Of a stretch of 64,000 nucleotides of DNA, positions 17,502 to 62,538 are shown in pieces. Made by a program: the position numbers and the translations under genes. Within the stretch, counting starts at the first letter, position 1. Every line of letters begins with the position of its first letter. This DNA comes from Blastocatellia bacterium (GTDB lineage Bacteria; Acidobacteriota; Blastocatellia; HR10), in assembly GCA_025055075.1 (NCBI GenBank), contig JANWYV010000006.1, positions 62,001-126,000 of the forward strand, written 5' to 3'. The notes beneath the pieces were generated by a model. The model saw nothing but the letters and a program-made list of their open reading frames with translations. It had not been told where the DNA came from and did not search any database.

Positions 17502-17924
17502 TCATTCGGCGCTGTAGTCCCAGAAGAAGACCCCTTCGGGCTTCAGGCGAATGATGAGCGTCTCCGGCGTGTACAGTTGCTGGAAGGCGCGGCTCTTGGG
17601 TGAACCATAGTACTTCGTGCCCAACGCGCGCCAGACTTTGCGCCACAGACGCGGATCGGTGACCTCCTCCGCCCGACCCCAGAAGGAGACACCCTTATAT
17701 GTGCGCACGCTCGTCCCCCCATCAATGACCCATCCGACCCGAGGATTCTTCAAAATGGCGCGTCCTTTCGCGCTCTCGCGGTCCGTGCCGAAGAAGAACT
17801 CGTTCCCCATGGCGACGAACCAGAGGGGGAGGACATGGGGGTATCCTCGAGCATCAGTGAACGCCAAGCGCATGATCTTTTGCGCGGCGCAGAACTCACG
17901 CAAGCTTCGCGGCACGCGTCGCAT
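17502..17924 (-). CDS. Pyridoxamine 5'-phosphate oxidase (PPOX)-fold protein
   Basis: A 140-residue split-barrel flavin-binding-fold protein. It shows the family pattern: an opening helix (L-R-E-F-C-A-A-Q-K), a first strand ending in G-Y-P-H-V-L-P-L-W-F, then G-N-E-F-F-F-G-T and a K-x-x-x-I-L-x-N-P-R-V segment. Relatives bind FMN, heme or the deazaflavin F420. As cofG and cofH are in this window, F420 is an attractive cofactor, but that is inference. ATG 17924 is favoured because GGAGG lies seven bases upstream; longer starts add unrelated sequence. It follows folD by 29 bases on the same strand. Confidence 0.78.
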   Translation of the reverse strand: MRRVPRSLREFCAAQKIMRLAFTDARGYPHVLPLWFVAMGNEFFFGTDRESAKGRAILKNPRVGWVIDGGTSVRTYKGVSFWGRAEEVTDPRLWRKVWRALGTKYYGSPKSRAFQQLYTPETLIIRLKPEGVFFWDYSAE

Positions 17925-17953: not shown

Positions 17954-18892
17954 TCAGGCGGTCGCCGAACGAACCGCCGCCCGTCGCCATCGCGCGGCCT
18001 TGACCGTGTTTTTCATGAGCATGGCGATCGTGAGTGGGCCAACACCTCCGGGCACCGGTGTTAGGTAGCCGGCGACGGCTGCGACGCTCGTCGGATGCAC
18101 GTCCCCGACGAGCGTATATCCCTTCGATTCCAGTTCGCCCAAGCGCTTTTCGTCCGGTCCGAACAAGCGCTCGACCTCCGCGCGATCGGTCACTTTGTTG
18201 ATGCCCACATCAATGACGACGGCACCGGGCTTGACATATTCGGCAGTGACCAGAGCCGTTCGTCCGATCGCGGCGATGAGGATGTCCGCCTGGCGCGCGA
18301 TCTCCGCCAAGTGCGGCGTGCGACTGTGACAGATCGTGACCGTCGCATGCCGATGCAGGAGCATCAAGGCCAGCGGCTTCCCCACGATATCGCTGCGTCC
18401 GATGACGACAGCCCGTTGTCCCTCGATGGGGATCCGCATGCGCTCCAGCAGCTCGATGATGCCTGCGGGCGTGCATGGCTCCAACGCCTCTTGATTCCGC
18501 ACCAGGCGCCCGACGTTCACCGGATGAAAGCCGTCCACGTCTTTGGCGGGATCCACGGCGTCGAGCACCCGTTGCGTGTCAATATGGCGCGGCAGGGGCA
18601 GTTGCACGAGGATGCCGTCAATGTCCTCGCGAGCGTTCAAGCGAGCGATCAGGTGGAGCAATTCCTCGGTCGTCGTCGTCTCCGGCAGCTCGTGCTTCTC
18701 GGAATAGATGCCCAGTTCCCCACAGGTCTTCACCTTGCTGTTGACGTAGACGCGGGAAGCGGGATTCGTGCCAACGAGGATCGCGGCCAAACCAGGGCGA
18801 ATGCCGCGTTCGGCGAGCGCCGCGACTTCTCGCGCGACCTCGCTCTTGATCTGTTGGGCGATCGCTGCGCCATCGAGTCTCTGTGCGGTCAT
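17954..18892 (-). CDS. folD: Methylenetetrahydrofolate dehydrogenase/cyclohydrolase FolD
   Basis: A 312-residue bifunctional enzyme interconverting methylene-, methenyl- and formyl-tetrahydrofolate with NADP in the cytoplasm. The catalytic Lys is K53 in Y-V-N-S-K, and V-Q-L-P-L-P and K-D-V-D-G-F-H-P mark the substrate cleft. G-R-S-D-I-V-G-K-P is the Rossmann dinucleotide loop, and [11 protein letters not shown] near the end is the family signature. About 15 extra basic residues follow the usual end. Its ATG overlaps the upstream HD-domain gene stop (ATGA), so both are translated together. Confidence 0.95.
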
Positions 18893-59036: not shown

Positions 59037-60218
59037 TCAGGCGAAGATGCGCCGAATCTGGTAAGTCGTCGTGCGTTCGGCGGGGATGCGGCCCAGCTCG
59101 CGGATGCGGGCATGAAATTCCTCGGGCGCCAGATACTCTCCGGCCGTTGCTCCTGCCAATCGGGAGATATTCTCTTCCATGAGGGTGCCCCCGTAGTCGT
59201 TGGCGCCCGCCCGTAAGCAGAGCTGCGAGAGCGCGCGCCCGAGCTTCACCCAAGAGACCTGAATGTTCTCGATCCATCCTCGCAAGAGCAGTCGCGCGAG
59301 GGCATGAACTTTCAGATGTTCCTCCAGGGTCGGTCCCGGTCGCGCTTTCCCGAGCTTGTAGAGCACAGTGTTCCAAGGGACGAAGCCCAAGGGGACGAAT
59401 TCCGTGAATCCGCCGGTGCGCTTCTGGATCTCGCGCAACAGCAGCAGATGACCAACCCAGTGCTCCGGCGTCTCCACGTGTCCATACATCATCGTGGAGG
59501 TGGAGCGAATGCCTAGCTCGTGGGCCGTCGTGATCACCTCCACCCACTGGGCGACGGTGAGTTTCTGCCGCGAGATGCGCCACCGCACCACGTCGTCGAG
59601 GATCTCGGCGGCCGTCCCCGGCAGCGTGTCCAAGCCGTTCTCCTTCAGCATGAGCAAGTAATCGCGGAGCGCCATCCCCGTTCGCTCGACGCCATAGACG
59701 ATCTCCATCGGCGAGAAAGCGTGGATGTGAATCTGGGGGACGCGCTCTTTGATCGCCCGCAGGATGTCGCGGTAGAAGAATCCGTCCATATTTGGGGGCA
59801 ATCCGCCTTGCACGCAGACCTCGGTCGCGCCCCGTTGCCAAGCCTCGACGGCTTTCTCGGCGATCTGATCGAGCGTCAAAGCGTACGCGTCTCGCTCCTT
59901 CGGTGTGCGGCTGAAGGCGCAAAAGCTGCAGCCGACGAAGCAGATGTTGGTGAAATTGATGTTCCGGTTGACGACGTAGGTGACAATATCGCCGACGGTC
60001 TCCCGCCGCACCTGATCGGCGACGGTCACAAGGGCGCGCACCTCCGCGCCCCTCGCCCGAGCCAGCCGAAGACCTTCCTCGAAATTCAACTCGCGCCCGG
60101 CCAACGCGGCTTCTAAGATTCGAGCCAGATCACGAGGCGCGCGCGCGAGCGCGCGCTCCACCGATGCTTCTTCGCCTTCGAGCTTCCCCATGATGTCCGT
60201 CAGCAAGTCTTCTCTCAT
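59037..60218 (-). CDS. cofH: FO synthase subunit 2 (CofH)
   Basis: A 393-residue radical SAM enzyme. With CofG it makes 7,8-didemethyl-8-hydroxy-5-deazariboflavin (FO), the chromophore of coenzyme F420; CofH joins tyrosine to the pyrimidine. The iron-sulfur cluster motif is C93-F-V-G-C97-S-F-C100. T-E-V-C-V-Q-G-G, H-A-F-S-P-M-E-I and G-A-N-D-Y-G-G-T-L-M-E-E-N are characteristic. ATG 60218 overlaps the cofG stop (ATGA), showing coupling; a longer frame into cofG lacks family similarity. The related menaquinone enzyme MqnC/MqnE is the main alternative, but the adjacent CofG supports FO. Confidence 0.9.
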   Translation of the reverse strand: MREDLLTDIMGKLEGEEASVERALARAPRDLARILEAALAGRELNFEEGLRLARARGAEVRALVTVADQVRRETVGDIVTYVVNRNINFTNICFVGCSFCAFSRTPKERDAYALTLDQIAEKAVEAWQRGATEVCVQGGLPPNMDGFFYRDILRAIKERVPQIHIHAFSPMEIVYGVERTGMALRDYLLMLKENGLDTLPGTAAEILDDVVRWRISRQKLTVAQWVEVITTAHELGIRSTSTMMYGHVETPEHWVGHLLLLREIQKRTGGFTEFVPLGFVPWNTVLYKLGKARPGPTLEEHLKVHALARLLLRGWIENIQVSWVKLGRALSQLCLRAGANDYGGTLMEENISRLAGATAGEYLAPEEFHARIRELGRIPAERTTTYQIRRIFA

Positions 60219-61477
60219 GCCGGATACCCTTCCTCGGTCACGCGCGCGAGAACGCGCGCCGAAAGCTCTGGGGTCAGGAACCCAGGCCGTCGAATGAATT
60301 CCGGATAAATGGCCAAGCGTTCTCGGAGTTCGAACCCTCGGACGCGCATTTGTTCGCGCAGCCATTCGATCTGAGGCCAGGGACGTTCAGGATTGATGTG
60401 ATCGGGCGTGAGCGGAGAAATCCCCCCCCAATCGTTGATTCCGGCATGAAGGAGGATGCCCATCGCCTCACTGGCTTGCGGCGAAGGCGACCATAGCGTC
60501 GAGGGGGCATCCGGAATGAGATTCGGGGGCACTTGAATGTTCATCCGCCCACCGAAGAGAAGGCGAGCGACGGCCACCGTGCGGGCTAGGTCTTCCACGG
60601 TCGGCTCCGGATGTGCGCGCATGGGGATGTTCGGTTTGGCCCGAAAGTTCTGGATGATGATCTCCTGAATATGCCCGTAGGTCTCGTGGATCGCGCGTAA
60701 CGCGAGGAGCGAATCCACGCGCTCCTCGAGGGTCTCCCCGATGCCGATGAGCAGGCCCGTCGTGAACGGGATGCGCAAACGTCCGGCATCGGCGATCGTG
60801 CGCAATCGAAGGCGCGGGTGTTTGTCCGGAGCGCGGGAATGCGGCCCACCTCGCCGCAGAAGACGCGGGCTCGCATTCTCCAGCATCAAGCCCATGCTCA
60901 CGCTCACCTCTTTGAGCGCGCGCAGATCGGCTTCGGTCATCACTCCCGGGTTCACGTGGGGCAACAATTCGGTCTCCGCCAACACGCGCGCGCACATGGC
61001 GCGCAAGTAGCCGAGCGTCGTCTCGTGTCCGAGTGCCGCGAGCGTCCGACGCATTTCGGGAAACGCTCGCTCCGGTTTATCGCCCAGGCTGAAAAGGGCT
61101 TCCTTGCACCCGAGTCGTTCCCCGGCCCGCGCGACGGCGAGCACTTCCTCGGGCGTCATCGTCTTCGCCTCGGGCTCCCCAGGATCCTTGCGAAACGTGC
61201 AATAGGCGCAATAGTCGCGGCACAGATTCGTGAGGGGAAGGAAGACCTTCTTGGAGAAGGTGATCGTGCGTCCGCGTTCGCGATCGCGGACTTCGGCCGC
61301 CGCCTCCAAAAGCGCCCACCACTCGTCCCCTTCAGCTTGAATGAGAAGCAAGGTATCTTCGCGGTCTAGGCGCTGACCCGCGCGCGCTTTCTTCAGCGCG
61401 GCGATGAAGGCGCGATAGAAACGTCGTTCCCCCCCGCGCGGTAGGACATGCGCGATGTCGCCGCCTCGCCCGCTCAT
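60215..61477 (-). CDS. cofG: FO synthase subunit 1 (CofG)
   Basis: A 420-residue radical SAM enzyme that closes the deazaflavin ring in FO synthesis. The cluster motif is C86-R-D-Y-C90-A-Y-C93. S-L-G-D-K-P-E, H-V-N-P-G, S-M-G-L-M-L-E-N and I-N-D-W-G-G-I-S-P are CofG-type. The N-terminal 60 residues are a helical extension. Its promoter faces that of the proline dehydrogenase gene. In a Gram-negative, non-actinobacterial context the pair suggests that deazaflavin is used either as F420 or as a photolyase antenna. Confidence 0.92.
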   Translation of the reverse strand: MSGRGGDIAHVLPRGGERRFYRAFIAALKKARAGQRLDREDTLLLIQAEGDEWWALLEAAAEVRDRERGRTITFSKKVFLPLTNLCRDYCAYCTFRKDPGEPEAKTMTPEEVLAVARAGERLGCKEALFSLGDKPERAFPEMRRTLAALGHETTLGYLRAMCARVLAETELLPHVNPGVMTEADLRALKEVSVSMGLMLENASPRLLRRGGPHSRAPDKHPRLRLRTIADAGRLRIPFTTGLLIGIGETLEERVDSLLALRAIHETYGHIQEIIIQNFRAKPNIPMRAHPEPTVEDLARTVAVARLLFGGRMNIQVPPNLIPDAPSTLWSPSPQASEAMGILLHAGINDWGGISPLTPDHINPERPWPQIEWLREQMRVRGFELRERLAIYPEFIRRPGFLTPELSARVLARVTEEGYPA

Positions 61478-61491
61478 CGTCGTGAGCGTTA

Positions 61492-61520
61492 ACTGTATCG
61501 CACTCGGACGATGTGCGCAA
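61492..61520 (-). promoter_or_regulatory. cofG: Promoter of cofG-cofH
   Basis: On the minus strand, TTGCGC (61520-61515), 17-base spacer, TACAGT (61497-61492). The predicted leader before ATG 61477 is about eight bases, and no ribosome site is visible. Confidence 0.5.
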
Positions 61521-61535
61521 ACGCGCGCCCCTCGT

Positions 61536-61565
61536 TTGTGAAATCTTCAGGCGACGCCGTAAAAT
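61536..61565 (+). promoter_or_regulatory. Promoter of the proline dehydrogenase gene
   Basis: TTGTGA (61536-61541), 18-base spacer, TAAAAT (61560-61565). It gives a leader of about 110 bases before ATG 61684; I could not match that leader to a known riboswitch. Confidence 0.6.
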
Positions 61566-61683
61566 TCGAGAGGGGCTATGCGAGGGTGCGGACGCGCGAG
61601 CTCTTGGGGCAACAGCCGAAGAACACGGCGAGAGTGTGCTGGCATCCCTCGCGCATCATGTTGGGCGTTTCGAGGAGCAGGCT

Positions 61684-62538
61684 ATGGACCTCTTCTTCCT
61701 GGCTCGCCGCTTCGTCGCGGGCGTGGATGTCGAAAGCGCCATCCGCGTCGTTCGGGGATTGAATGAGAGAGGGTTACAGGCGACGCTGGATTTCCTCGGC
61801 GAAAACGTTCGAGATCGCGAGCAGGCCGAGAAGGCCGTCGAGGCCTACGCTTCTCTCCTGGGGGAGATCGCGACGGCCGGCATCGAGTCGGACATCTCGG
61901 TGAAGCTCACGCAGCTCGGATTGGACATCAGCGAGCGATTCTGCGAGGAGAATATGGAGCGGCTTCTCTCCCGCGCCGCTGAATGTCGCAACTTCGTCTG
62001 GATCGACATGGAGGGATCAGCCTACACGCAGCGCACGTTGGACCTTTTCTTTCGCCTCTTTCGCACTCATCCCAATGTCGGTGTGGCCATTCAGGCCTAC
62101 CTCTATCGCAGCGAAGAGGACGTGCGCCGCCTCGCCGACGTGAGGGCGCGCGTGCGCGTGTGCAAGGGGGCGTACAAGGAGCCGAAGACGATCGCCTATC
62201 GGCGAATGCGCGACATTCGGCGAAATTTTCTTCGACTCGCCGAGATCCTCTTCGAGCGCGGGAGCAATCCGGCCATCGCCACGCATGACGAACAGCTCAT
62301 CGAAGCCGTCCAACGCATGACGATCGAGCGGGAGATCACCCCGGATCGCTTCGAGTTCCAAATGCTCTATGGGATTCGGCCGCGCTTGCAGGAGCGGTTG
62401 GCTCGCCAAGGCTATCGCGTGCGCGTCTATGTCCCCTTCGGGACGCACTGGTTCCCTTACTTCTCTCGTCGGCTGCGAGAGCGGAAGGAGAACATCTGGT
62501 TCGTCCTGAAGAATCTCTTCGAGTGGTCCCGCGCCTGA
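61684..62538 (+). CDS. Proline dehydrogenase (PRODH)
   Basis: A 284-residue flavin enzyme that oxidises proline to pyrroline-5-carboxylate and passes electrons to quinone. It is the short single-domain form. Motifs: A-R-R-F-V-A-G-V-D, I-S-V-K-L-T-Q-L-G-L, V-W-I-D-M-E-G-S-A-Y-T-Q, V-C-K-G-A-Y-K-E-P and F-E-F-Q-M-L-Y-G-I-R. ATG 61684 is chosen because GAGGAG lies six bases upstream; codons before it do not match the family. It fits catabolism of proline released by the DPP-IV-type peptidase. Confidence 0.9.
   Translation: MDLFFLARRFVAGVDVESAIRVVRGLNERGLQATLDFLGENVRDREQAEKAVEAYASLLGEIATAGIESDISVKLTQLGLDISERFCEENMERLLSRAAECRNFVWIDMEGSAYTQRTLDLFFRLFRTHPNVGVAIQAYLYRSEEDVRRLADVRARVRVCKGAYKEPKTIAYRRMRDIRRNFLRLAEILFERGSNPAIATHDEQLIEAVQRMTIEREITPDRFEFQMLYGIRPRLQERLARQGYRVRVYVPFGTHWFPYFSRRLRERKENIWFVLKNLFEWSRA

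Follow-up and report, generated by a model that had tools for sequence, protein, structure and literature searches.

The redox cofactor F420 is built around FO, its light-absorbing core. The FO synthase of F420 biosynthesis occurs in a split form, CofG plus CofH, in archaea, cyanobacteria and several bacteria, and as the fused protein FbiC in Actinobacteria; FbiB of the later pathway carries a C-terminal reductase domain. In the pathway as it is predicted here, CofH would couple tyrosine to a riboflavin precursor and CofG would close the ring to give FO, CofC would activate 2-phospholactate or phosphoenolpyruvate, CofD would move the activated group onto FO, CofE would append glutamates, and Fno (npdG) would use NADPH to reduce F420, on which luciferase-like and PPOX reductases would draw. 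Acidobacteria are among the phyla listed with F420 biosynthesis genes in a review, the accessible part of which reports no experimental study of F420 roles outside Actinobacteria (PMC8498797). The remark of an earlier, sequence-only reading of the DNA studied here that F420 and FO are sparsely described outside Actinobacteria is thus a fair one, the genes being known in Acidobacteria and their roles lacking experimental study.

The window, i.e., the whole stretch of 64,000 nucleotides that was analyzed, belongs to a member of Acidobacteriota, and its host is indeed a non-actinobacterium, as that reading had supposed. The phylum was assigned by way of a named Acidobacteriaceae record (L116, G402), whose genome agrees with G084, a same-phylum entry of the phylum sample, in the coordinates, bits and E-value of cofG; the class is probably Blastocatellia. 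It contains the following features.

59037..60218, minus strand: cofH, FO synthase subunit 2 (5-amino-6-(D-ribitylamino)uracil-tyrosine hydroxyphenyl transferase), 393 aa; TIGR03551, 515 bits (cut-off 374); CofH_C, PF19288
60215..60218, minus strand: ATGA overlap of the cofG stop and the cofH start (TCAT on the plus strand)
60215..61477, minus strand: cofG, 420 aa; TIGR03550, 451 bits (cut-off 213); Radical_SAM, PF04055
61478..61600, minus strand: upstream region of cofG, partly conserved in an alignment of four species of the genus

The cofG-cofH pair and the predicted F420 pathway of its genome

Each of the two proteins scored well above its curated NCBIfam equivalog cut-off, which bears out the split FO synthase that had been proposed, and the radical-SAM CX3CX2C motif reads CRDYCAYC in the translation of cofG and CFVGCSFC in that of cofH. 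The two genes are adjacent on the minus strand at the coordinates originally reported, and their ATGA overlap suggests translational coupling. The pair had also been credited with a promoter of its own. Upstream of cofG no sigma-70-like match was found on the minus strand, and the two matches present there both lie on the plus strand and point towards the divergent gene at 61513-62538 (plus strand), with which 61478..61600 is probably shared as a divergent promoter region; nevertheless, a promoter belonging to cofG-cofH is plausible, because the alignment of four species of the genus shows partial conservation of this stretch.

The window itself is devoid of cofC, cofD and cofE, as had been observed from the sequence, and all three genes were located elsewhere in the genome (3.02 Mb, 59 contigs, 98.8% complete), on contig C16, where cofD, cofC, cofE and npdG (fno) follow one another on one strand. 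All four encoded proteins exceeded the respective cut-offs (CofD, 346 bits against 257; CofE, 307 against 181; Fno, 229 against 150; CofC, 165 against 105). A TetR-type regulator gene followed by genes that we take to be efflux-type is divergent from cofD-cofC-cofE-fno (L032:8033-13194). The genome search likewise returned F420-family proteins and a photolyase, the two kinds of downstream gene on which the sequence-only proposal depended. Together, these data point, with a probability of about 0.9, to a predicted complete F420 pathway in this organism, in which the window pair would be the FO synthase; membership of the pathway is assigned by curated models, and the chemistry, known for the families, is presumed to apply here. 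Judged by sequence, there is nothing unusual about this split FO synthase, and what it adds is another acidobacterial genus for a known pathway.

With regard to the CofC substrate, the diagnostic position of the 3-phosphoglycerate type of CofC, a Ser equivalent to S162 of Mycetohabitans, is described in the accessible part of PMC8764529. When the C16 protein was aligned with the solved structure 7p97, a 3-phosphoglycerate enzyme, this position, which we placed by its distance from the conserved Ser that follows, was occupied by Gly. The residue leads us to expect phospholactate or phosphoenolpyruvate as the substrate, an expectation that shares this partly deduced placement.

We weighed two other roles for the pair. 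The first, that it supplies FO solely as a photolyase antenna, as the sequence-only reading had allowed, is very improbable. The photolyase of the genome finds its best NCBIfam model in the 8-HDF type (TIGR03556, of type ‘exception’) and its best solved relatives in 1owl and 1tez, presumably the Synechococcus FO-antenna photolyase, and FO-only relatives seem to exist, since in the phylum sample described below 9 of the 49 genomes with cofG have no cofD above the cut-off (one of them, G234, has a partial cofD). However, the photolyase reached only 456 bits against a TIGR03556 cut-off of 885, a cofGH-bearing member of the genus (G397) has no photolyase match, and the genome has cofC, cofD, cofE and fno in a cluster and encodes F420-family proteins as well. 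Because these four exceed their cut-offs, we favor F420 over FO alone, and FO as the only product was rejected; the part of the antenna proposal that survives is that FO may serve light harvesting in addition to F420, a possibility suggested by the closeness of the photolyase to 1owl and 1tez. The second, membership of the futalosine menaquinone pathway, which the sequence-only reading had itself raised, has a negligible chance of being right and was refuted by the model scores: CofH is close kin of MqnC and MqnE and scored 368 and 318 bits with their models, but both values lie under the cut-offs (428 and 435, respectively) while CofH exceeds its own, CofG is no menaquinone enzyme, and a separate MqnE is encoded on contig C45 (527 bits, cut-off 435), with a further CofH-like match, under the CofH cut-off, on C5.

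Candidate F420 users in the window and elsewhere in the genome

The sequence-only reading had singled out a small PPOX-fold protein adjoining folD in the window.

17502..17924, minus strand: PPOX-fold protein of 140 aa (counted from the start chosen), possible F420-dependent reductase; Pfam PNPOx_N, PF01243, 74 bits (cut-off 28)
17954..18892, minus strand: open reading frame directly upstream of the PPOX gene, putatively folD, as named in the sequence-only reading; the gene order is kept in G323 and G397

The PPOX-fold gene is real and adjoins the putative folD as described, and its use of F420 is possible. The protein scored 45 bits with the nearest F420 family, TIGR03618, under the cut-off of 79, but its nearest homolog in G259, a genome from another family of the class, is encoded directly upstream of cofH and shares 44% identity with it, against 26 to 31% with the two other PPOX proteins of the window's genome. 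The position of the G259 homolog lends circumstantial support to the window protein as a possible F420 user, which may still bind F420. In G259, methionine-salvage-like genes (class II aldolase, ARD, HAD phosphatase) and a small multidrug resistance gene lie between cofG and cofH (L205:7335-12257); a link of these genes to radical SAM by-products is possible.

By family-model scores, F420 users elsewhere in the genome are better supported than the window protein. Among the three PPOX proteins of the genome, the one on C45 passed TIGR03618 with 134 bits, and the one on C33 (75 bits) fell under its cut-off, as did that of the window. Three of the five luciferase-like genes encode proteins above an F420-family cut-off (TIGR03617, 426 bits against 278; TIGR03560, 273 against 231; TIGR03619, 176 against 167), while the third luciferase-like protein of C33 was 0.1 bit short of the TIGR03619 cut-off and the first reached no cut-off among its best 25 families. 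Some luciferase-like proteins of this superfamily use FMN, so the user assignments are made at the level of the family only. C33 has its PPOX and luciferase-like genes together with a CoA-transferase-subunit-like gene, and an acyl-CoA ligase and a short-chain dehydrogenase are encoded nearby (L195:3894-10258); this is perhaps an F420-linked degradation cluster.

Distribution and history of FO synthase

The F420 pathway has already been predicted in Acidobacteriota; what is new here is the patchiness of FO synthase, i.e., its uncoupling from the rest of the pathway. In a phylum sample of 396 genomes, mostly draft assemblies in pieces on which the absences depend, cofG was above the cut-off in 49 and cofD in 51, with 40 genomes having both, 11 cofD only and 9 cofG only. 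Among the 11 of 51 cofD-positive genomes without cofG above the cut-off, G322 has a cofG fragment at a contig edge. In the other ten (G383, G132, G371, G009, G331, G275, G291, G203, G330, and G376) all candidates were scored and no CofG or CofH above the cut-off was found; the CofG/CofH-type matches were at the level of MqnC/MqnE, or there were none at all. Their cofD loci contain cofC in 10/10 cases and, in the stretches read, cofE in 8/10, the exceptions being G275 and G376, of which the latter stretch ends shortly after cofC. The four genomes searched for users (G383, G132, G371, and G009) have npdG and luciferase-like genes.

Other arrangements were also seen in the sample. Three two-contig genomes of 3.7 Mb from the same class (G096, G123, and G165) encode, on separate contigs, a CofG that is divergent (322-329 bits) and a CofH-like protein that narrowly misses the cut-off (363-370 bits); they have no cofD and are possible FO-only organisms. 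G077 and G206 each have a single open frame of 840-876 aa that spans CofG and CofH, an FbiC-like fusion, and cofD is not above the cut-off.

The pattern extends beyond the phylum. A scan of named genomes by CofD alignment, from which the window's own lineage was left out, gave 80 loci, of which 50 were tested. In these 50 cofD-positive genomes cofG was above the cut-off in 37 and absent from 13, and CofH was absent from 13/13 of the latter, with CofH detected in 3/3 positive controls. The genomes lacking both include Ktedonobacter robiniae, Xylanimonas oleitrophica, Cellulosimicrobium cellulans JZ5, Actinotalea sp. C106 and several archaeal assemblies. Because cofC and cofE are not near cofD at every one of the 13 loci, some of these organisms may use CofD otherwise.

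Gene trees of the two modules were then compared. The CofD tree, of 82 rows, recovers the order of the window as a single clade (98/91). In that of CofG, with 65 rows, the members of the window's genus group together (99/98) and have G235, from another family, as their sister (100/99); the order-mate G400 lies far from them. In AU tests, which were set up after the trees had been seen, a grouping of the genus with G235 in CofD was rejected, as was a grouping of the genus with G400 in CofG; the cofGH of G400 sits on a 3.4 kb contig and may be contamination. On the CofD tree, a gene tree and not a species tree, the FO-synthase state changes at least 12 times, with 23/82 rows without FO synthase. 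The CofG and CofD trees conflict, and the two modules have different histories; either cofGH or cofDCE may have moved. Given the patchy absence and the conflicting trees, FO synthase appears to behave as a module that is lost or exchanged separately, independent of cofC-cofD-cofE.

FO as a possible shared precursor and comparison with known systems

FO was present in the culture supernatants of producers and is called membrane permeable in the accessible part of one report (PMC11917521), and yeast equipped with CofC, CofD and FbiB, which has no FO synthase, produces F420 when FO is supplied, according to the accessible part of another (PMC10949242). If FO is released and permeable, relatives that have only cofC, cofD and cofE could pick up the precursor from their neighbors, and their gene content is consistent with such uptake from the surroundings. 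At its broadest, this would make FO a shared, vitamin-like commodity: FO synthase would have been repeatedly lost or exchanged in Acidobacteriota and other phyla while cofC-cofD-cofE and the users stay, and many users would depend on the FO of neighbors, with the window's genus among the suppliers. We advance this broad proposal tentatively, at somewhat under even odds.

Its main rival for the relatives without cofGH is that they make FO with an unrelated enzyme that has not been described, and take up none. In its favor, cofD, cofC and, in most cases, cofE are retained by these relatives, and Fno and luciferase-like proteins by the ones that were checked; in addition, an FO importer common to the relatives was not found beside cofDCE. 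However, no candidate for such an enzyme was found, and the release and permeability of FO are documented in the accessible part of PMC11917521, and we regard this explanation as unlikely. Among the loci examined, only that of G009, a genome without FO synthase, has an MFS transporter gene, which adjoins fno-cofD-cofC-cofE (L213:9360-10571) and is a lead for an FO importer.

Less likely still is that the absence of FO synthase from relatives is a mere artifact of incomplete assemblies. Most of the genomes are drafts, and G322 with its fragment at a contig edge is a case in point; however, among the 38 of the 51 cofD-positive genomes that are at least 95% complete, cofG is absent from 9, against 0.9 expected from incompleteness, the absences group by lineage (G009 with G331, G275 with G291, and G203 with G330), and cofG and cofH are both missing from strain-named records too, Ktedonobacter robiniae among them. 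On the count of 9 observed against 0.9 expected, incompleteness as the sole cause of the patchiness was rejected.

Returning to the proposal of a shared precursor, no literature was found that treats FO auxotrophy, or cofC, cofD and cofE without FO synthase, as a trait, in a search whose coverage left out most subscription journals. Should the wider pattern hold, neither cofD nor FO synthase by itself would be enough to diagnose F420 biosynthesis, and producers would have to be counted by the two together; FO would then be one more cofactor precursor that microbes trade, like cobalamin-like compounds. Of these results, the separation of FO synthase from the remaining pathway is worth following.

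Compared with known systems, the window pair resembles the split CofG and CofH in being two adjacent, overlapping genes for radical SAM proteins above the equivalog cut-offs, and differs from it in nothing of substance, the order being cofG then cofH and the position remote from the other pathway genes. It has the same two domains as FbiC of Actinobacteria, cofG-like then cofH-like, but in two genes, and the fused model (cut-off 1018) was matched in halves only. As in the bacterial pathway of CofC/FbiD, CofD/FbiA, CofE/FbiB and Fno, all four proteins are found here above their cut-offs, encoded in a single cluster, whereas CofE, at 250 aa, is without the C-terminal reductase domain of FbiB.
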